Shown: positions 1,170 through 21,074 of the stretch, one piece after another
How the letters are laid out: every line of letters starts with the position of its first letter
Numbering within the stretch: position 1 is the stretch's first letter
IMG/VR virus record: IMGVR_UViG_3300022752_000418
Location: 1 to 22,605 of that record
Origin: a virus
Length of the DNA: 22,605 bases
Strand: one strand, 5' to 3'
Notes under the pieces: model-generated
What the model was told of the DNA's origin: nothing
Database searches by the model: none
What the model saw: only the letters and a program-made list of their open reading frames with translations
Program-made: the position numbers and the translations under genes

Positions 1170-2174
1170 ATGGCCGACTACGCCATCGGGCTCTCATTCC
1201 ACAAGGCCCATCGGACGATCGTCCGAGCCGTGGACCTGACCCCTCCCTGCCGCTATTTCGCCACCCGCGACAACGCCGGCGCCATCACCCTGCCCACCCT
1301 CGACCCTGGTAGCAGCTACATCGAGCTGCAGGGCATCACCCAGACCAGTTTCCGTATCAACGACCAGAACCAGGACTTCCGTCTGCTCGGCGACGACGGC
1401 TGGATGGACTCGGTGATCACCGGCTCCTCGGTGCAGGCCTCGGTGACCGCCTACTTCCTGAAGGACGCTGAGATCCCCGCAGGTCAGAACTGCCCCGTCT
1501 TCCAGGGCAACTACGACCAGGGCTTCAACCTCATCCAGCGCGCCCGCTACAACAAGGACTACGAGATCTACATTGAGTTTCTCAAAGAGCTCGGTCGTAG
1601 CAACGGTTCCACCGGTAATTACATCTACGACTTCACCGGTTTCAACGCAGTCATTCAGAACTACCAAGAGCAGATCAACGCTCAAGGCCTGACTGAGATC
1701 ACCTTTGATCTCATGTCCCGCGCTCGTCCGGTCTTCGGCCGCTACGACGCCGGCTCCTCAGCCATCTCCTTCGGTGGTGTCCAGGCCAGCCTCCTCTTCC
1801 TGACCGCTGGCACTCGCCAGGCCGCCTCGGTGCCGACCGACAACGCCAGCGGTGTGGTTGTTGGCGACAACCTCACCGTCACCTACACCAGCAACGGCAC
1901 GGCGGCACTCACCCAGCTCTCCCTGGGCCAGACGGATGGCTCGGGCTTCAGCCTGGAGGTCGCCTCGACCGGCGTCAAGGTACCCGCTGCGGTAAGCCTG
2001 GCCACCAACGTGGTGACCATCGACCCGTCCGCGAACCTCAGCGCTGCCACCATCTACCGGCTCCGCGTCGCGGACGGCGCCATTGTCCAGGCGGTCGACG
2101 CCAACGGCACTGCATCGGCCTCGGGGATCAAGCGCCCCATCCAGGGCTTCACCCGCACCTTCCGCACCGCCTAA
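1170..2174 (+). CDS. Major tail (tube) protein with C-terminal Ig-like domain
   Basis: A 334-residue protein, the likely subunit of the tail tube through which DNA passes. Residues 1 to about 215 are strand-rich and contain a tube-type element, with QEQINAQGLTEITFDLMSRAR (about residues 166-186) just before a Gly/Ser-rich linker. From about residue 225 there is a separate domain resembling bacterial Ig-like folds (the Big_5/SbsA type): VVVGDNLTVTYTSN, a variable middle, then ATIYRLRVADGAIV. Such decorations on major tail proteins project from the tube surface and may bind host glycans. It has the strongest ribosome site in the window and is followed by a Rho-independent terminator. Tube identity is supported by size, order and expression signals; the Ig domain is motif-based. 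Confidence 0.82.
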   Translation: MADYAIGLSFHKAHRTIVRAVDLTPPCRYFATRDNAGAITLPTLDPGSSYIELQGITQTSFRINDQNQDFRLLGDDGWMDSVITGSSVQASVTAYFLKDAEIPAGQNCPVFQGNYDQGFNLIQRARYNKDYEIYIEFLKELGRSNGSTGNYIYDFTGFNAVIQNYQEQINAQGLTEITFDLMSRARPVFGRYDAGSSAISFGGVQASLLFLTAGTRQAASVPTDNASGVVVGDNLTVTYTSNGTAALTQLSLGQTDGSGFSLEVASTGVKVPAAVSLATNVVTIDPSANLSAATIYRLRVADGAIVQAVDANGTASASGIKRPIQGFTRTFRTA

Positions 2175-2230: not shown

Positions 2231-2491
2231 ATGAACCACGACTTACTTATTGATCCCATCAACACTGTCTTTGCGGTCAACTGCCGAGAAGAAGGCTCCA
2301 CGCTCCACTGCGGAGCCCTCTACCTCGAACCCCTGATCCAGAGTCAGTCTATACGCCTGGCGTATGGCGAGGCTAGTATTCAGGTCGAACTCCCATTTGA
2401 ACTGCTCCACCAACCAGCGCCCTATGTGGCGTGGGAGGTGAAGCTTCCTGTCGATCATGAGCAAGTACGCAAGCCTGCTTTTCTCACCTGA
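2231..2491 (+). CDS. Small hypothetical protein between tail tube and chaperones
   Basis: An 86-residue frame beginning 9 bases after the terminator. I do not recognise the family. It is mildly acidic, strand-rich and soluble, with two cysteines (residues 18 and 27), and has no membrane segment. It overlaps the next gene by 35 bases, longer than the stop/start overlaps elsewhere, which slightly weakens the call; but without it there would be a 235-base gap in an otherwise gap-free operon. The reverse-strand frame in the same place is a shadow. Confidence 0.55.
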   Translation: MNHDLLIDPINTVFAVNCREEGSTLHCGALYLEPLIQSQSIRLAYGEASIQVELPFELLHQPAPYVAWEVKLPVDHEQVRKPAFLT

Positions 2492-2999
2492 GAAGTACCA
2501 CGAGATCGGACCATTCCGCTTTCCCGTATACCACGATCTGAACCCGGGAGAGATTGAAGCGATTGAAAAAGCAAATAGACAGCAATCAAAAAATGCTTTT
2601 AAGTCTATTAAGCTTGCTCAACGTATCGCAGCTGACAAAGGCATCACCGTCAAAGAAGCGGTAGAGGTATTGAAGAAAGCAGGAGAAGACGAAGTTGAAG
2701 ACATCATGTACTCTTACGGTGAAGAACTGGAAGAGCTGCAAGACAGTAACATAAGCGCTGTTACTCAGCAAGTACTCTTCGTCACTGTATTCATGCAGTA
2801 CCGAGGCGAGGTACAACTTGAAGGTGAATGGAAACCTTGCCCGGACTGGACTGAAGCAGATACCCGTCGGACCCCAGGAAAGTACCTCGAGCAGATCTTC
2901 AACCTGATCATGTGGGAACGAGACGGCTGGCCCCCCGAGGGCGCTGAGGGAAACGACCAGGAGAGCCCGAAGCCGATCCCGACCCGGAAGAGATCCTGA
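2457..2999 (+). CDS. Tail assembly chaperone, unshifted form (gpG-like)
   Basis: A 180-residue, strongly helical and charged protein: helices at about residues 31-60, 65-76 and 78-96, with acidic runs (EDEVED, EELEEL), then a helical C-terminal half ending in a Pro/Lys/Arg tail. It lies between the major tail protein and the tape measure, exactly where siphophages encode the chaperone that coats the tape measure before tube polymerisation. The role is known for lambda gpG; here it is inferred from position and from the frameshift signal at codons 165-166 (2948-2954). The last 14 residues are found only in the unshifted product. No close Shine-Dalgarno precedes the ATG; a GGGAGGTG lies about 16 bases upstream, so coupling to the preceding gene is possible. 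Confidence 0.82.
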   Translation: MSKYASLLFSPEKYHEIGPFRFPVYHDLNPGEIEAIEKANRQQSKNAFKSIKLAQRIAADKGITVKEAVEVLKKAGEDEVEDIMYSYGEELEELQDSNISAVTQQVLFVTVFMQYRGEVQLEGEWKPCPDWTEADTRRTPGKYLEQIFNLIMWERDGWPPEGAEGNDQESPKPIPTRKRS

Positions 3000-3430
3000 G
3001 GCTCTGCGAGCAGTATTTACGCACACCCCCTACTGATTGGGATTCCATATATCTGCGCATCAAGCTATCACCGCTCTCGGGGGAGTTCACTCGGGCTGGT
3101 TTTCTGCGAACTCCTATAAGCACCATACGCTGGGTTCTTAGAGAACTAGATGATTACGAAAAGGCTCAGTCAAACCTGCGTTCTGTCTCAGTAGCTCGAC
3201 TAACAACCACTCTAATAAATATCGCCCACGGATTTTCAGGTAGTAACGCACCACCGCCGCAAGTACAAACAAAGGACTTTTTACCGTTCCCGGACTGGTC
3301 GCCCTCCTCGACCCCCGAGGACGGACCTTCAACTGAAACTAAGACAGTCCTTACACAGTTACTGAAAGAACGCCGTATACCCCCTCATATTTTTTCGGCG
3401 CTGATTACACCAACGCAAACAAGTCCTTAA
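2457..3430 (+). CDS. Tail assembly chaperone, -1 frameshift fusion (gpGT-like)
   Basis: Predicted join of 2457-2954 and 2954-3430 after a -1 slip, giving about 324 residues (166 from the first frame, 158 from the second). The second frame is open from the GGG at 2948 to TAA at 3428-3430 and contains no ATG, GTG or TTG, so it is hard to express except by shifting. Its protein opens with an acidic Pro-rich linker (GEPEADPDPEE), continues with a helical region (EEILRLCEQYL, then PISTIRWVLRELDDYEKA), and has KDFLPFPDW near the C-terminus, similar to T domains of other tail chaperones. In lambda the T domain recruits the tube subunit while G binds the tape measure. The arrangement explains 2948-3430, which otherwise looks gene-free after 2999. 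Confidence 0.88.
2948..2954 (+). promoter_or_regulatory. Programmed -1 ribosomal frameshift heptamer GGGAAAC
   Basis: The heptamer sits as G GGA AAC in the frame of the upstream gene, exactly the X XXY YYZ layout for a tandem -1 slip to GGG AAA. The -1 frame has a TGA directly before it (2945-2947), so the open overlap starts precisely at the slip site. Lambda uses GGGAAAG in the same place. Confidence 0.88.
2962..3005 (+). other. Possible frameshift-stimulating stem-loop
   Basis: AGAGCC (2962-2967) is complementary to GGCTCT (3000-3005). The stem would begin 7 bases after the slippery heptamer, a usual spacer length for stimulatory structures. The 32-base loop is long, but contains two GATC copies that could pair and shorten it. 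Found by eye; no folding energy was computed. Confidence 0.4.
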
Positions 3431-3459
3431 AATAGATCAGCCTCAGGACGCGTCGAGCA

Positions 3460-6400
3460 ATGACTGACTTTAGAATAAAAGTCTCTGCTGAAACTGAGGA
3501 AGCTAGCAGAAAGCTACGTGAAGTCGATAAAGAAGCAGAAAAGGCAAGCCGGAAGCGCCAGATTAGTTTCGACTTTCCAAGTCTTGAACAGACTAAGAGA
3601 TCGCTTCAAGAACTAGGACAAGTAGCAAACATAGCGTTCACTGTATTTAAGAATGTCACTCCTCTTGGACGTAGCATTCAAGACCTTGAAGAAAATGTTG
3701 GCGTTGCAACTAAGTCACTAGAAGGCTTCGGCAAGAGCATTATTAGTGCTAGTAAATACGCGGATCCTGTTCGAGGCATCAAAGACAGCTTCGGCGTCGT
3801 AGGAGACACCATTCAAGGTGTAACTGAGACGACCGCACAACTAGGCTTTGCGATATTCGGTGTCACCCAGTCCTTAGACATTCTTAAAGCCGCATTCGGA
3901 AAAGCCTTTGATGAGACGATTGGACGCGAGATCAGACTAAGAGAACAAATACTACAGACCTCAACCGCTCTAGCGAGCACAAACCGCATTTTTGCAGACG
4001 GCATCGAAATTGATGACCCCGTCAAAAAGCTACAAGCGCTTGAGCAGCCGCTGAACGCGAGCATCGAACGGCTTCGTGAGAAGTCTCTTGAGATCGCCGG
4101 GACCACCTCCGAGGCCGTCATCGATACCTTCGGGATCGTCGCACAGCAAATCGGCAACTTTGGAGGGACTCTGCGTGACGCCGAGAACTTAGCCGCGAAG
4201 TTCGCCGGAGCCCTTGGAACGCTTGGGATGTCGGATCCCTCGTACGCAAGGCAAGAAATCGGTTCCATAGTACGAGGAGACATAGGCCCTGACTCGGTAC
4301 TTGCAAAAACCCTCGGTATTAGCAACGCGGACATTGCTAAAGCTAAGACACAAGCTGGAGGTCTTGTTGAGTTCCTAAACACAAAGCTGGCCACTTTTGA
4401 AGCAGGTCAGAAAAAAGCTGCATTGGGCTTTAGAGGTATTACCTCAAACCTGGAAGAACTGAGTCAAGAAATCAAGCGCAACTTCGGTGCTCCGATACTT
4501 GATCCAATCCTGAAGCGCCTTGAAGCTTTCTATAAGGTCGTAGGAGGAAAAGACACAACCAAACAGTTTTTACAGACCGCGCGCGGTTTCGGATCTTTAG
4601 TAGGCGGAGCCCTGAACACCACCGCTGGCATCGTCGCTGATTCGCCCGCTCTTCAGAATGTCGATGGCAAGCTTCTCGAAGACCTTGCTAAGCGACTTGA
4701 ACAAGTCTTTGCTCGTATCTCCACTTATATTCAAGAGCAATTCGCGCGAGCCGGAACAAACATCCAACAAGTAGTCGACGGGATTGCAGCGACCATAGCT
4801 CAGCTAGCGCCAGCGTTTGCGTCGATAGCAGCGGCACTCGGTCGCCTCAAAATCAACGAGTTACAGCTACAGCTTAGATCATACAAAGATCTAGTACAGA
4901 CTATTGCATTGTTGTCAGGCGCTTACAGCGAATACCTACGCACAGTCGAACAGTTTCTATCTCTACCAATAACCGGCTATATTAACGACTTACGCGTTAC
5001 TTTTAAGCTACTGAGCCAAGCCGGCATTATCGATGTCGTAAACTTGGTGATTGCTATTGGTGGAATCATAACAGCTATTAAACCTATTAAAGCGGCTTTA
5101 GTCCAGTTTGCCTCAACCATATCGGCTGTTATTACAAGTATCACAACGTTCATAGTAACCAACACTAATAAGGTATCAGCCTTCATCACAGCCTTAATTG
5201 CCCGCATCGTAGTAAGCATCTCATCAGGTCTTCAGACCATCGTTAAGTTTGTACAGGGTGTATTAGGACGTATAGAAATAGCGCTGAATGCGTTCTCCAC
5301 AAAGCTAATGCTTATGGGAGGCGTGTTTGAAGCTCTCAGTCGTCCAATATATGCTGTAAGCACCGCTTTAGGCGCACTGAATAACTCTTTAGATAAGCTT
5401 GATGTAAATATGGCAGATTTTGCTAACAAGACTCGTATTGCTATGGGACAGGTAGATGCAGCTGTCCAGAAAACTACAGCAAAAGTTCAAGACTTGGGAA
5501 CCATCCTTGGTGGAAAGCTCGTTCAAGGTGCGCAAGCAGGCGGCAATGCCATCATCGGCATGGTCGGCGGTATTGTTGCGAATATCGCTAAGTTCGTGTT
5601 TTGGCAAATCGCTATAACTGCAGTTGTAGATGCTCTCGGCCGGCTAAGCGAATGGTGGAACAAATACAGTCAGAACCAGCAGTATAAGCAGGCAATAAGC
5701 AGCATCAACAACGGCCTTGCCGATCAGGTGCGCATCGCACGAGAGACGGGACGTGCTTTGGACGCAGTAACCGAAGCACGAAAACGCGACGCTGAGGCGG
5801 CTATACGTCAAACAAATGCGAATAACGTTGAAGTCTATCGTAAGCTTAATGATGAGCTTTATAGACGTTCGCGTAACATCAAAGCACTCGAAGACGCACG
5901 TAGCAGGAACACAAACCAACCGTTGATTGGAAACGAACGAGCGGTTGAGCTAGCACGAGAGCGTGACCCTGAATTTGCAAAGCGTATTGATCGCTTCAAA
6001 GCAGAGATCGCTAAAGGTGAAAAAGCGCTCCGTGATCTTCTCGGCGAAGACATCACAACAAAACCAGAGGATACCCAACTCAAACAGCAAGAAAACCGTC
6101 AACTCATCGAAGACCTCGCACGCTTCGAGCGCGATACCCGTCAAACAATCGAAGACGAAATCTACAATTACAGACGTCAACTGCAGAGTCGTGAACTCGA
6201 TCTTTTCCGTGCCCAAGGTCAACTACAGATTGAACAGGCCGAAGCACGCAACAGAAAACTAATCGAAGGTACTCAAGAAGAAGCCAAAGCAGGTGCTACA
6301 GCACTGGTCCAGTGGATCAGCACAAAGCGCCGAGGTGAACTCGACATCGAAACGAAGAAGCGTGAGGCAGCTGCCGCCCTAGCCGAGGTCGAACGTGCTC

Positions 6401-9318
6401 TCGGGCGCTTCCGTCTGAATCTCGAGCGTCAGATCACAGAACTCCGCAAGCGCATGGCGCAATACGAGATCGACGTCCTCGACAAGCGCCTGAAGGCTGA
6501 GCAGACCATCGCCAACATCCGCAACGGTTCCCTGGTGCAGGATCCAACCTCCGGCATCCAGGGTCGAACAGGCCTACGCATGGGCCGCACCGGCACCGCC
6601 ACCGGAGATCACTACCACATCGAAGGCGCTGCCACCGAGGACGAAGCGCGCGCCATCTTCGCCCGCGGCCGTGAACGCGGTGTCGTGATGACGAGCCCTC
6701 CAGGCCCACGTCGCGCACCAACGAGAGGAGCCAGCACCATGCACGGTGGCTGGGATCTGGCAGGAGCACCCATCGCTGATCTTGACCTTGCACCTGGCTA
6801 CACCCTCATCTCCTTCCAGATGAATCAAGGTGGTCTAGGCAATGTCGCTACTGTCCGCCGAGACAGTGACGGCAAGATCTTCAAGCTCGGACATATTGCA
6901 AACCCTGCCAAAGGATGGACATTCAATCAGAACCAGTCTGGTAGTTCATACGCAGCAACGACGCTAAACCGTCGAGCACAAGCAATGCAGTTCTTTATGG
7001 AGAAAGGACTTCCACGTGTGAGTGCCGCCGCGCTCGTGGGTGGATTCCAACAGGAATCAGCTGGACTAGACCCCAGCAGGGAAAATCCGACAAGTAAAGC
7101 ACTGGGCATCGCTCAGTGGACAGGTACAAGACGCTCCAATATGCTCGCCGCAGGAGGACAAAACAATTTCCAAAAGCAGCTCGAGTTCGCTTGGCAAGAG
7201 CTTAACACAACGGAAAATGCATCTCTTAAAAAACTGCGTGACGCAAAAACCTTAAATCAAGCTCTGATGGGTGCTGCTTCATTCGAGCGATTCGCAGGAT
7301 GGCAAAGAGGCCCCGGTGGCGGTGGTGAGTGGGGATCCCGCGTCCAATACACGAAGGAGCTGCTCAGCGGTGTCGCCCCCGGGGGCGGTCCCGGTGCTGC
7401 CGGCATCAACGCCGTCGGGGGAGCACCTAAAGCTCCAGACATCACACTCAACCTCGACACGTCTGAGCTCGATACAGTCCTCGGGGGTCTTAAACGTGTC
7501 AATGCTGAGCTTCAAAAGCTCGATGCACAGTCTGTAGAGCTTCGCAATAAAGAGAGCTTCGACGCCTTTGTCAGAAGCATCGATCAAAGCAGCAAACAGC
7601 TAGAGCAGATTACGATTGATGCCCAAAATCAACTGACAAGCTACGAAACCTCAGCCAAAGCTTTAGCAGATACACCATTCCTTGATCGTGATGTAATCAA
7701 TCTCGACATAACACGCAAACAACTAACAGACGAAGCGGAGCGCAAAAAGTTAGCGCTACTAAAAATGACACGCGAGATCCAAAACGCCACCGAGGACGAA
7801 AGGAAAAAAGCAGCTGCAGCAATCGAAGCCCAGTACACAAAAGATATTTCTAACCTCGATCTCATTTTTAAGAGCCGCTTACAGATCCTACGTCTCACTA
7901 AAGAAGAAAACGCCCTGTACGCACTGCGGGACCAGCGTGTTAGCGATAACATGCAGTATCAGCGTGACCTAATCCAAACACGTGCCGAAGCATTCAGATC
8001 AACTCTCAGTCCTACCGACTTTGTAGGCCGACGTCAACTCGATGCACGTGTCAATGCCAGTACAAGGCTGATTGAACTCACCAAAGGAGGAACCGAACCT
8101 ATTGGCGACGCGCTTGCTAATAAGTTCAACGAAGAAGTACAGCAAGGACAAGCTATCGCCAAGCAACTTGCTATCGTTGACTCAGAACTGTACAAGTTTT
8201 CCGAACGGCTAAGGATGGCGCGTGAAGTCACAGCCACTTTCGTCGAATCAAACAAAAACATACTCAAGAGTGTTCTCCAAGGTAACTCGGTTGTAGACGC
8301 TGTGACACAGATGAGCGAGACGATTGCCAATAAGTTTACTGATATGGCGCTTGACTATGCGTTTAAGCCTATCGAACAACAAATGGAGACCTTCTTCAAA
8401 GGTGTGTTCAACGCAGATTCAGCAGAGCAAGCCAATACCACAGCACTAAGCAGTCTCACATTGAGCATTGATAACAAACTTATACCTGCCATAACGACTC
8501 TAACGACGGCTGTACAAGGTCAAACAACGGCAACGACAGCAGCTACAACCCCTGGCACAAGCGGCACTCCGGCTACGCCTGAAGAAAAAGTCAATAAGTT
8601 CGCAGAAACACTACAGAAAGCTACAGCTGCTGTCGCAGTAGTTGCGACTTCAGCGCTGTCTATCGCAGGCGGCATCCAACAAGTGCGCAAAGGAGGTGCG
8701 TACAACGTCCTCATGGGCCTCGCTGGTGTCTTCTCAGGCATCGGTTCTGTCACAGGTGCTTTCGGCAAAGGCGGCGCCCTCTCCGGCCTGTTCAAGGCCT
8801 CCGGCGGCCCCGTCACCGCCAACCGCCCCTACATCGTTGGCGAGCGCGGCTTCGAGCTCTTCGTCCCCCAGACCAACGGCACCGTCGTCTCCAACGACCG
8901 CAGCCGCGCCCTCCTCGACGCCCGCGGTGCCCTGTCCACCAGCAGCACCAGCAGCAGCTCCCCCGAGGGCGGCGCTCTCACCTATTCGACCTCGGGTAAC
9001 CCCGACCTCTTCAGTGCGACCCGCAACGCCCTCACCTACACCTCCGATCCCAACCCCTTCGCTGCCAGCCGCGGCGCCCTGTCCTCCACGACCAACCTCA
9101 CCCGAGAGCGTCAGAGCGAACGCATCCTCACGACCACCCTCAACGCCGCCCCCAAACCCCTGGACATTCGCTACCAGAGCGAAGTCATCAACAGCACCGA
9201 GTACGTCTCCGCGGACCAGTTCCAACGCGGCATGTCCGAAGCCGCCGAGCGCGGCCGTGCCCTCACGCTCAGCGCATTGAAAAACTCTGTCCGTGCCCGT
9301 CGTCAAATTGGTATCTAA
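3460..9318 (+). CDS. Tape measure protein with M23-like and tail lysozyme domains
   Basis: A 1952-residue protein, by far the longest in the tail-assembly part, directly after the chaperones. Residues 1-60 and large parts of 740-1020 and 1330-1660 are charged, helical and coiled-coil-like. Hydrophobic helices occur near 521-610, 696-728 and 1724-1778, as in tape measures that insert in the host membrane. The C-terminal segment SGGPVTANRPYIVGERGFE (from about 1781) is a tape-measure signature. Two hydrolase domains are embedded. Residues 1040-1150 are M23/LytM-like with H1051-x-H1053, H1095-xxx-D1099 and H1145. Residues 1171-1305 resemble phage tail lysozyme, with QQESAGLDP (E1199 the likely acid) and GIAQWTGTR. 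It should set tail length and cut peptidoglycan at DNA entry. Composition is patchy: AT-richer through most of 3460-8740, GC-rich near 6400-6800 and after 8750. Confidence 0.92.
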   Translation: MTDFRIKVSAETEEASRKLREVDKEAEKASRKRQISFDFPSLEQTKRSLQELGQVANIAFTVFKNVTPLGRSIQDLEENVGVATKSLEGFGKSIISASKYADPVRGIKDSFGVVGDTIQGVTETTAQLGFAIFGVTQSLDILKAAFGKAFDETIGREIRLREQILQTSTALASTNRIFADGIEIDDPVKKLQALEQPLNASIERLREKSLEIAGTTSEAVIDTFGIVAQQIGNFGGTLRDAENLAAKFAGALGTLGMSDPSYARQEIGSIVRGDIGPDSVLAKTLGISNADIAKAKTQAGGLVEFLNTKLATFEAGQKKAALGFRGITSNLEELSQEIKRNFGAPILDPILKRLEAFYKVVGGKDTTKQFLQTARGFGSLVGGALNTTAGIVADSPALQNVDGKLLEDLAKRLEQVFARISTYIQEQFARAGTNIQQVVDGIAATIAQLAPAFASIAAALGRLKINELQLQLRSYKDLVQTIALLSGAYSEYLRTVEQFLSLPITGYINDLRVTFKLLSQAGIIDVVNLVIAIGGIITAIKPIKAALVQFASTISAVITSITTFIVTNTNKVSAFITALIARIVVSISSGLQTIVKFVQGVLGRIEIALNAFSTKLMLMGGVFEALSRPIYAVSTALGALNNSLDKLDVNMADFANKTRIAMGQVDAAVQKTTAKVQDLGTILGGKLVQGAQAGGNAIIGMVGGIVANIAKFVFWQIAITAVVDALGRLSEWWNKYSQNQQYKQAISSINNGLADQVRIARETGRALDAVTEARKRDAEAAIRQTNANNVEVYRKLNDELYRRSRNIKALEDARSRNTNQPLIGNERAVELARERDPEFAKRIDRFKAEIAKGEKALRDLLGEDITTKPEDTQLKQQENRQLIEDLARFERDTRQTIEDEIYNYRRQLQSRELDLFRAQGQLQIEQAEARNRKLIEGTQEEAKAGATALVQWISTKRRGELDIETKKREAAAALAEVERALGRFRLNLERQITELRKRMAQYEIDVLDKRLKAEQTIANIRNGSLVQDPTSGIQGRTGLRMGRTGTATGDHYHIEGAATEDEARAIFARGRERGVVMTSPPGPRRAPTRGASTMHGGWDLAGAPIADLDLAPGYTLISFQMNQGGLGNVATVRRDSDGKIFKLGHIANPAKGWTFNQNQSGSSYAATTLNRRAQAMQFFMEKGLPRVSAAALVGGFQQESAGLDPSRENPTSKALGIAQWTGTRRSNMLAAGGQNNFQKQLEFAWQELNTTENASLKKLRDAKTLNQALMGAASFERFAGWQRGPGGGGEWGSRVQYTKELLSGVAPGGGPGAAGINAVGGAPKAPDITLNLDTSELDTVLGGLKRVNAELQKLDAQSVELRNKESFDAFVRSIDQSSKQLEQITIDAQNQLTSYETSAKALADTPFLDRDVINLDITRKQLTDEAERKKLALLKMTREIQNATEDERKKAAAAIEAQYTKDISNLDLIFKSRLQILRLTKEENALYALRDQRVSDNMQYQRDLIQTRAEAFRSTLSPTDFVGRRQLDARVNASTRLIELTKGGTEPIGDALANKFNEEVQQGQAIAKQLAIVDSELYKFSERLRMAREVTATFVESNKNILKSVLQGNSVVDAVTQMSETIANKFTDMALDYAFKPIEQQMETFFKGVFNADSAEQANTTALSSLTLSIDNKLIPAITTLTTAVQGQTTATTAATTPGTSGTPATPEEKVNKFAETLQKATAAVAVVATSALSIAGGIQQVRKGGAYNVLMGLAGVFSGIGSVTGAFGKGGALSGLFKASGGPVTANRPYIVGERGFELFVPQTNGTVVSNDRSRALLDARGALSTSSTSSSSPEGGALTYSTSGNPDLFSATRNALTYTSDPNPFAASRGALSSTTNLTRERQSERILTTTLNAAPKPLDIRYQSEVINSTEYVSADQFQRGMSEAAERGRALTLSALKNSVRARRQIGI

Positions 9319-14218: not shown

Positions 14219-14614
14219 ATGGCTCTAGTCACCGGTAGCAACGGAGAGCTGCGATATAACGGCACACGAATCGCCAAGTGCCGTGAGTTCAGCATTGACA
14301 TCAGCCGCGATGCCTTGGACTCATCCGTGCTCGGGGCGTACGACCGCACCTTCATCGAAGGTATGCGTGGAGCGACAGGCTCTGCCACCATCTTGTACGA
14401 CGAAGACGACCCGGCGACCGTAGCGCTGATAAACAATATCTTTAGCAACAGCCGCGAAGATCAAGCCTTCGCGCTGTACCTCAACACCACCAGCAACAAG
14501 GCTCTGTCCTTCAACGCCCTGACGACACAAGTCAGCACTCCAGTGCGCGTTGGAGATGTCACCGCATGCAGTGTCAGCTTTCAAGTCAGCGGCCCTATTG
14601 ACGGTACATTCTGA
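14219..14614 (+). CDS. Tail-tube-like protein, short form
   Basis: 131 residues. The core FSIDISRDALDSSVLG followed by RGATGSATILYDEDDPA resembles the tube-fold element of phage tail tube proteins (a strand, a 'D-A-L-D-(S/T)-(S/T)' turn, then a G-x-(G/A)-(S/T) strand), and the C-terminus VGDVTACSVSFQVSGPIDGTF matches the usual last strands. The major tail protein is already present upstream (1170-2174), so this is probably a minor tube, tip or fibre-base ring subunit. It is separated from the previous gene by 21 bases containing a weak GTGAAG purine stretch, and its stop overlaps the next start as TGATG. Assignment is by motif recall. Confidence 0.68.
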   Translation: MALVTGSNGELRYNGTRIAKCREFSIDISRDALDSSVLGAYDRTFIEGMRGATGSATILYDEDDPATVALINNIFSNSREDQAFALYLNTTSNKALSFNALTTQVSTPVRVGDVTACSVSFQVSGPIDGTF

Positions 14615-18500: not shown

Positions 18501-21074
18501 GCCGGCATCGTCGAGCTCGCCACCACCGCTGAGGCCGTGGCCGCCGCCATCAGCGACCGGGCTGTCACACCCGAAGGCCTGGGCGCCTTCCAGGACGACT
18601 TCCTGGATCGACTGGAGTTCATGAGCGACGCCGAGTCGATCGTATATGTTGATGCTTCTGTTGTCATCAATGGCAGCAATGTTGCTACCTACGCCAGCAT
18701 TTCAAATGCTATCTGGACTGACATCAAGGCAAATCGTGTTGTCCATGATCTTGATAGCTGGGCTACAACGGCACCAGCAGAGACCTCGGATCAGTACAAG
18801 TTTGCAAGAAATGTCGTCTTCAAGACAGTCAAGCAAGCTTTTGATTTTATCAATAGTCGGGTTCCGATCACTCGCGACACGATTGAGATCAGACTGTATC
18901 AGTCCAGCGACTCAAACGCCAGTGGCATCGTAACTTGCAGCTATCGCGGTACGGCCAATCTGCTGATTGCCGCTGGCGCATCTGCAACGCTTCTGACCAA
19001 CGGCTGGAGTGCAGAGCACTACTGCGGCTATCTGTCAATTCCCTATGCAACGCTGAAGCTACAGCAGGCCAACCTGAACATCACAGGCACTGCTGCAGCG
19101 CCAGACACCAGGCGCTCCAATGGACGACCTGTTGTCGCCGGAAGCATTGAGATTGTCAATTCAAGAGTCAAGTGCGTATCTACATCTACCAATGGCGCGA
19201 TCATCTTCCTTGCTGCGACAGAGCAATTCTCGATTCTCGCCAACGAATCATTCTCCAACAAGAATGAGATCACCGTTGACTATAACTCAGCCACGCTTGG
19301 TCGTGTTGTGCTTGCAAGCTGCAAGGATCTGACAATCAACTCAAGGCAGTCTGCTATCAATACCAGCAAAACACTTGATGTTGCGCTGAGCTTCAAGAGA
19401 ACTGGCATATCTGCTGGCAAGTCGCAGACTACCTGCTTCTCCGTGTCCGAAAGCGCCAGGCTATACATCGACCCAAATAACGCTCTGCCTTTCTCAAGAT
19501 TTGTCCTTTCGTTCGACTTCACATCTTCACAGGCTACAAGTTTTGACTTTATTTACGCAGAGGCCGGCTTCAAGGTTTCCGAGATTGGTCGCTTCACTGC
19601 AGATGCAAATAACTTTACTCAAATCAATATGCCGATTGCCCAGAAGGGCAGCCTTACAGAAGTCTTTGGTATTCGCGCTGGTGGTCCCGTCACTCTAACC
19701 TGGAATACATTCGGCACTCCATCTGCACTTCTCCCGAATCAAACGGGATTCCTGTTTACGCTTGCCACGGCGTTCAACGCAGCTGGGCTATCAACAACTG
19801 CATCCTATCTGTGGGAGATTCCTGCAGGCAGCACCCGCTATGGCACATTTTTGCTGTCTGGCCTTGATTCAGCAAATATTTCTAATGCCGGTACTCCATA
19901 CGATCCACCCGGTGGAACAGCTGGAACCGGAACCCTTACAGATGTGAATCTGTCGCTTTCACCTGGAACTGTATTCAGTGTAGTAAAAAATGACACCGCC
20001 GTCCCCGGAGAAATTACTTTTACCGGCAGCCTTAATCAGCAGCTAGCAAATAGAATTTTTGCGGGTCCGTCAAGCGGCAGCTCCGCTACGCCTTCGTTCC
20101 GACAGCTGGTCGCAGCTGATCTGCCAAGCGATGTAGTTACCACAACCGGTACTCAGACGCTTTCAAACAAAACCCTTGCTTCGCCAGTCATCAACGGGAC
20201 GGCAGCCTTCGCAGCAGGCACGGCAGCTGCCCCGAGTGCGGCGTTCGGCGAAGCAAACAGTGGCTATTACAGGATCAGCACCGGCGTGCTCGGTCTCTCT
20301 ACGGGCGGCGTTGAGGCCCTTCGGGTCGATGCAAGTGGCCGCATCGGTTCGCGTAGCTCCTCTCTTGGAGGCATCAATGGGGCCTACAGCCTGGCAGCAG
20401 CTCCAACCGGAGGAACAACTTCACACGGCATCGTCTACGCTCCGGTTATTGCATCAGATGTAACAGATACATGTAATGCGATCCTATGTAATCCGTCTAA
20501 AAGCGCAGGTTCAACTCTTCCCAACCTTCGTCACTTTACTGCCGCGCAGGGCACTCTTACCGGAACGGTCACCGATCAGATTGGCTTCTTCGCTCAAGGT
20601 ACCCTAATTGGCGCGACAAGAAACTACGGTTTCTACTCGCTAATTGCAAGTTCTACCGGTCGCTGGAACTTTTATGCGGGTGGTAACGCTCCAAACTATT
20701 TTGAGGGAGACATCCGCACAGGAACGGTTCTCACGCAGCGTCAAGTGCCTGCAGGTACCGCTTTTGTCGCAAACGCAGCTGTTCTTACGAACACTGCCCT
20801 GACTGACGGGATTGTCACAGGGACACCGACAGCTGCTTCCACAATGCAGCTGCCAACGGGGACCAACATGGATAGCGTGTTCCAAGAACTGCAAAACAAC
20901 CAAATGTTTGAATGGACTCTGATTAACCTCGCTACTGCCACACATACCATCACTGTGACAGCTAACACAACCCACACCGTTATCGGAAATATGGTCGTGG
21001 CCGCAAACTCCTCCGCGCGGTTCATTACCCGTAAAACCACCGCCAACACCTTCATCACCTACCGAGCTTCTTGA
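15585..21074 (+). CDS. Giant tail fibre / tail appendage, cyanophage type
   Basis: 1829 residues with a GTG start; the only upstream ATG (15551) is in another frame. Residues 80-460 look like a right-handed beta-helix with blocks I recall from cyanophage tail-appendage proteins: SDLRKTILRP (about 186), SHHLLHCFEF (about 237), then RRSFHIRAINDAIMQEVSVF and SNSNFGG. Near 966-1008 is an ASTTKAGIVELAT...RAVTPEGL segment, a tail-fibre repeat. Residues 1020-1450 are a second region with beta-helix-like strand turns and no recognised family. From about 1495: a LVAADLP motif, GTQTLSNKTLASP (about 1520), a collagen-free beta region with GYYRISTGVLGLSTGG, and a terminal NMDSVFQELQ...NTHTVIGNM-type domain. 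It probably trimerises and binds the host surface. GC is high before about 18640 and much lower after it, although the frame is uninterrupted. Confidence 0.88.
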   Translation: MTKIIRAGQSGALDNINLAQSNFRSQIAAVTDAVRQLGGSPEIGSGAVINDPLSAPYVLYVNFYTGSDKFVSGSYSTSGSATQRIELQRLECGYTPSRPFKTISRAIIEAGIITSKSYYQQPLGNNDLVSIVLMPGATVVLNGAGSSVSEWANGKTPTDAELQAFNPTTTGGIILPRGCSLVAVSSDLRKTILRPETVPTPADEAADCSNRRTIFKVTGTGYYWGLTFMDKVGSTSSHHLLHCFEFASSAELDEFYGKIRTAFAGANNTGGLDPALAVTRTTEYEIVGPRPASGSQTAATDTTTSASPYIFNCSIRSNYGLCGVFADGSKPTGFKSMVLAQFTGVSLQKDLSCWQQFTSTPSAAWNTVSSYANYINADPNDLRMNPDRRSFHIRAINDAIMQEVSVFAIGQGIHHWTQSGGELTVTNSNSNFGGCAALAEGHKTTAFVSDASWNIGSIRVATNLSEKTNNVRRIFLGTVAESTTNTATTITLTENLANSTVNPGVPELLDKDGYSLVSGHWVWIENPRGEDYRAQLASTSWSSANPNRIVVTAAFENGNGEAPGDPIENAQGFPTGSTFPPLAGARVYVRRLVDTRSVDERRYSLRCNNTISRSRTPVRDYVLQTTPGDGGITGTISDSQLLVVASAASIAPEGAGVIRSASVELRRANAANTWASAQIYRIGDVVRRDLKAYSCKQANQDTTFDPNKWEEIFVHMESTFKPEDFWKNTQPIIIFNNDTDPDSATCGYTLSTVWSTDEAIRKQLRSGVDYLALHSLLVSLGFSTTNAHTILLPKTSSTRERNPASALDGLGAPSGAANAWGNWAIEFRRPSNIRLFGHAWEWAGFLNYSKSLPEYQLELSPLNKFTYYFSNKNGGRVYGSGFNEEGFLVTPQGLQDLATGNEITVENLGDRDVPIDQVEFPTVFQNITVEDNATITNLIVNGTITGQPNWDDEDPYGPSSFLPELPAASTTKAGIVELATTAEAVAAAISDRAVTPEGLGAFQDDFLDRLEFMSDAESIVYVDASVVINGSNVATYASISNAIWTDIKANRVVHDLDSWATTAPAETSDQYKFARNVVFKTVKQAFDFINSRVPITRDTIEIRLYQSSDSNASGIVTCSYRGTANLLIAAGASATLLTNGWSAEHYCGYLSIPYATLKLQQANLNITGTAAAPDTRRSNGRPVVAGSIEIVNSRVKCVSTSTNGAIIFLAATEQFSILANESFSNKNEITVDYNSATLGRVVLASCKDLTINSRQSAINTSKTLDVALSFKRTGISAGKSQTTCFSVSESARLYIDPNNALPFSRFVLSFDFTSSQATSFDFIYAEAGFKVSEIGRFTADANNFTQINMPIAQKGSLTEVFGIRAGGPVTLTWNTFGTPSALLPNQTGFLFTLATAFNAAGLSTTASYLWEIPAGSTRYGTFLLSGLDSANISNAGTPYDPPGGTAGTGTLTDVNLSLSPGTVFSVVKNDTAVPGEITFTGSLNQQLANRIFAGPSSGSSATPSFRQLVAADLPSDVVTTTGTQTLSNKTLASPVINGTAAFAAGTAAAPSAAFGEANSGYYRISTGVLGLSTGGVEALRVDASGRIGSRSSSLGGINGAYSLAAAPTGGTTSHGIVYAPVIASDVTDTCNAILCNPSKSAGSTLPNLRHFTAAQGTLTGTVTDQIGFFAQGTLIGATRNYGFYSLIASSTGRWNFYAGGNAPNYFEGDIRTGTVLTQRQVPAGTAFVANAAVLTNTALTDGIVTGTPTAASTMQLPTGTNMDSVFQELQNNQMFEWTLINLATATHTITVTANTTHTVIGNMVVAANSSARFITRKTTANTFITYRAS

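Follow-up and report, generated by a model that had tools for sequence, protein, structure and literature searches.

The tail gene region

The window, a stretch of 22,605 bases that makes up the whole of its own record, carries a series of tail genes in which an open reading frame (ORF) for a putative G-like chaperone is overlapped at its 3' end by a second, T-like frame in the -1 register. The features of this region are as follows.

1170..2174, + strand: candidate for the major tail (tube) protein, carrying a Big_5 domain (Pfam), from weak PHROG matches to major tail proteins
2231..2491, + strand: small ORF of 86 aa sharing 35 bases with the beginning of G; its counterpart in Synechococcus phage S-CBS4 is gp031
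2457..2999, + strand: putative G-like chaperone ORF of 180 aa, with stop codon TGA at 2997-2999; homologues in 74 distinct stretches
2945..2947, + strand: TGA closing the -1 frame just 5' of the slip site, read from the sequence
2948..2954, + strand: slippery heptamer G GGA AAC matching the codon phase of the G ORF, read from the sequence; a slippery heptamer occupies this place in all 74 stretches
2948..3430, + strand: T-like -1 frame of 160 codons plus TAA, supported by conservation and selection
2962..3005, + strand: candidate 6 bp stem, AGAGCC (2962-2967) pairing with GGCTCT (3000-3005), present but not conserved
3460..9318, + strand: tape measure protein of 1952 aa with a tail-lysozyme domain, from profile matches

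An earlier note on this DNA had described the second frame, and its account of the TGA at 2945-2947, the heptamer at 2948-2954, the 160-codon -1 frame and the TAA at 3428-3430 matched the window base for base. The junction at which the frames would be joined was also correctly placed between N166 and R167, the AAC of the heptamer being codon 166 of the G ORF. Re-reading bore out that the 160 sense codons of the T frame do not include a single ATG, GTG or TTG, and that start-based calling leaves 3000-3459 blank, at least among mechanically defined ORFs on the plus strand. The T frame between 3000 and 3427 is single-coding. When the region was subjected to 5000 dinucleotide shuffles, only 0.06% remained open over the length of the T frame; the lack of ATG, GTG and TTG is less rare, being found in 2.4% of the same shuffles.

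The gene order of tail tube, small ORF, G, T and tape measure is common to relatives of this locus. Among those reaching far enough to be informative, the tail tube gene is present in 27 of 27, the small ORF in 32 of 34 and the tape measure gene in 30 of 31. The tail-lysozyme domain of the tape measure protein corresponds to Phage_lysozyme2 (residues 1172-1279, E 5e-18). Far downstream of the candidate tail tube gene at 1170-2174, positions 14219-14614 of the window encode a second tail-tube-like protein, which falls just below the cut-off for Phage_tube_2.

Conservation of the slip site

Relatives were fetched by searches with the G and T peptides, and none through the heptamer. This produced 74 distinct stretches holding both G and T, the window and S-CBS4 included, which share kinship and do not represent 74 independent events. 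In contig IMGVR_UViG_3300043395_001679 the G and T proteins are identical to those of the window. In all 74 stretches, the -1 frame relative to G encodes a T homologue, and an in-phase slippery heptamer is found within the overlap: GGGAAAC in 47 cases, GGGAAAG in 23, GGGAAAA in two, and AAAAAAG and AAAAAAA in one each. Stops in the -1 frame of close relatives were sought, and the frame stays open in close and distant relatives alike.

Across 37 more divergent members, placed on a quickly built tree with many weak forks, the heptamer has changed at least six times and its last base has switched between C and another base at least three times; C is the final base in most members, and slipperiness has been lost nowhere. 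Other in-phase heptamers are scarce in the G genes, being found at 16 of 5992 codons, and in-phase GGGAAAN is absent away from the slip site in the same 5992 codons. Similarly, the glycine codon at the site is GGA at 35 of 35 GGG-type sites, compared with 54 of the 307 glycine codons elsewhere in G.

Positions 2955-2999 of the window, which encode the last codons of G and the first of T at once, contain a strongly conserved DNA block, which reads approximately GAGTTCAGCCCACCCCCGAGCAAATCCTGA in most relatives. Double coding alone may account for this conservation.

The Synechococcus phage S-CBS4 locus

S-CBS4, an isolated phage, is homologous in sequence for both proteins. Its G homologue has 30% identity to that of the window (E 7e-13), and its T protein can be aligned with relatives at 29-30% identity, sharing their invariant residues. 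Gene order and frame relation are as in the window; the difference lies in the slip site, which in S-CBS4 is an in-phase A AAA AAA, after which the -1 frame encodes the T homologue. That another heptamer takes this position in S-CBS4 suggests that slipperiness, rather than the encoded peptide, has been kept.

In the public record of this phage, the start of gp032 is placed inside G and that of gp033 inside T; both are listed as separate hypothetical proteins, with no frameshift annotated. The G-T region spans 19779-20746 of NC_016766 (4001-4968 of the locus as fetched); the start of G and the frameshift are missing from its annotation. A search of the open-access literature found no description of frameshifting in S-CBS4-like phages. 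Kinship with S-CBS4 is what points to a cyanobacterial host, since psbA-type genes are absent from eight related records, S-CBS4 included; the hosts are probably cyanobacteria.

Selection on the T frame and alternative routes to its expression

Downstream of the G stop, variability at the three positions of T codons is 0.26, 0.17 and 0.51. The median dN/dS for the T frame is 0.18, across the 11 pairs whose synonymous sites are not saturated, whereas in the other two frames of the same DNA it is 1.3 and 2.2, values that are approximate because synonymous sites are near saturation in most pairs. These two frames also contain around 4.5 and 4.7 stops per sequence. Purifying selection is acting on the T frame and not on the others.

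The second frame is thus protein-coding, and it lacks a usable conserved start of its own. In 31 of the 37 members the opening 30 codons of T contain no ATG, GTG or TTG, and in eight they contain no NTG whatever; relatives do have some ATG, GTG or TTG further into the frame, such that the absence over its whole length is peculiar to the window. There is little room, then, for the proposal that T is translated alone from a non-standard start, such as a CTG overlapping the G stop in a form of stop-start coupling, in place of frameshifting. Many members do possess a T-frame CTG that straddles the G stop, and the window has one at T codon 16, but the eight members lacking any NTG could not use such a start, and the proposal does not account for the presence of an in-phase heptamer in every member or for its GGA codon. 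This route is very improbable.

Slightly less probable again is that T is reached through transcriptional, rather than ribosomal, slippage at the site. The runs of seven A in S-CBS4 and six A in another relative, L170, would suit such a process, but GGGAAAC and GGGAAAG contain runs of three bases only, which are too short for efficient polymerase slippage, and the heptamer always occupies the phase that tandem tRNA slippage requires. If only the window were available, a single gene split into G and T by sequencing error or recent mutation could not be told from a homologous pair in adjacent frames. This possibility is refuted because the interruption recurs, with an unchanged frame relation, in all 74 distinct stretches, which derive from numerous metagenomes and one isolate.

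RNA signals around the slip site

The earlier note had also drawn attention to a 6 bp stem downstream of the heptamer. The stem exists, AGAGCC/GGCTCT beginning 7 nt 3' of the heptamer as described, but it is neither conserved nor unusually stable. An alignment of 32 sequences contained no consensus helix downstream of the site, other than three G-C pairs formed with the GGG of the heptamer itself and lacking covariation, and downstream folding energies equalled those of shuffled sequences (mean z 0.02). Hence the stem is probably not a required signal. Likewise, elements resembling a Shine-Dalgarno (SD) sequence upstream of the slip site are present in just seven of 37 members and are not conserved.

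Protein families and structure models

Neither G nor T gave a convincing match in profile searches of PDB, Pfam and PHROGs, and a PDB fold search with G was without a match. The profile search for T-domain homology that the earlier note had put forward as a check gave no significant match, either with Phage_tail_T or with lambda T in HHalign. The window protein has no match to Pfam PF06223 (Phage_tail_T), for which the curated cut-off is 25.9 bits; six of 37 relatives have matches below this threshold, the best at 17.3 bits (E 0.0066), hence sequence does not place T in this family, and six-frame searches of the window and eight records for Phage_tail_T were empty. Against eight lambda-type T proteins, the HHalign probability was 1.4% over 23 columns, which does not place T in the lambda T family. 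In searches of 50,697 phage records, tblastn with the window T found no match, while the window G and the G and T of S-CBS4 matched S-CBS4 only.

Structure models of G and T, built from the window and fetched-locus sequences with the S-CBS4 row left out, had mean pLDDT values of 76 and 81. Their Foldseek matches, at modest TM-scores, were the unnamed proteins A0A346A5Z9 and A0A346A600, with accession numbers that look consecutive and perhaps denote adjacent genes of one phage. The weak Phage_tail_T and Foldseek signals agree with the proposed identity of T, the Foldseek matches serving as leads. The name 'T domain' is based on where the frame lies, on the mechanism, and on weak signals from structure or Pfam.

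A putative G/GT frameshift system

Taken together, the sequence itself, its conservation, the relation of the frames, the selection on T and the order of the genes make it very probable that an S-CBS4-like phage with a long tail here encodes its G/GT tail assembly chaperone pair and produces it by -1 ribosomal frameshifting; from these we infer the slippage, its rate and the chaperone roles of the products. The suggestion of a hidden T frame expressed through a -1 shift at GGGAAAC is accordingly upheld at the sequence level by the conserved open frame, purifying selection, the heptamer and the gene position. Most ribosomes would read the G ORF to the stop at TGA 2997. In a minority, the Gly and Asn tRNAs on GGA AAC would slip back by one base and re-pair with GGG AAA, after which translation would continue in the T frame to TAA 3428, generating a G-T fusion of approximately 324 aa. 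By analogy with lambda, G may form a coat on the tape measure protein, and the T portion may recruit the tail-tube protein.

The parallel with lambda is supported by the arrangement. Lambda G is likewise positioned between the genes for the major tail protein and tape measure, and a GGGAAA-type heptamer close to its 3' end gives access to T in the -1 frame. The window has the same organisation, its overlapping frames lying between the tail-tube and tape-measure genes, with the second in -1 and a conserved in-phase X XXY YYZ heptamer in the overlap. By contrast, sequence homology to lambda T is not detected, and the heptamer of the window ends in C whereas that of lambda ends in G. The lambda G-T fusion is needed for tail assembly, with gpG and gpGT made at a ratio of about 30:1, and G binds the tape measure protein while T binds the tail-tube protein (PMC5009743).

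The g-t site of the haloarchaeal siphovirus HCTV-1 is listed as G_GGA_AAC (PMC5009743), identical to the heptamer of the window, although in an archaeal host. HK97 gp13 with its -1 frameshift product, and genes 14/15 of N15, are annotated as -1 frameshifts in the equivalent place, ahead of the tape measure gene; at the level tested their sequences are unrelated to those of the window, and in HK97 a moron gene lies in between.

Several observations count against this reading: there is no conserved stimulatory structure or SD-like element, no significant profile match to lambda T and no PDB fold match for G, and, for A-type heptamers in E. coli, A_AAA_AAC is reported to be less shift-prone than A_AAA_AAG (PMC5009743).

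Lambda-type frameshifting is a system already known, and the proteins constitute a family without curated models. A tentative extension, rather doubtful at present, is that G/T represent a chaperone family absent as such from Pfam and PHROGs and form a natural series, one slip site having switched its A-site codon between AAC (Asn) and AAG (Lys) in the absence of a conserved stimulatory RNA structure. If true, the hosts slip well enough on AAC, beyond what would be expected from E. coli. The set of slip sites at this one locus (GGGAAAC, GGGAAAG, GGGAAAA, AAAAAAG and AAAAAAA) would be useful for testing the determinants of -1 frameshifting rates in these hosts. The annotation is also corrected, adding a missed gene to a common group of phage contigs and to the isolate S-CBS4. 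The pair is also borne by OMII01000188.1, which is filed under a Proteobacteria genome bin and may be a phage contig that was binned with a Proteobacteria genome.
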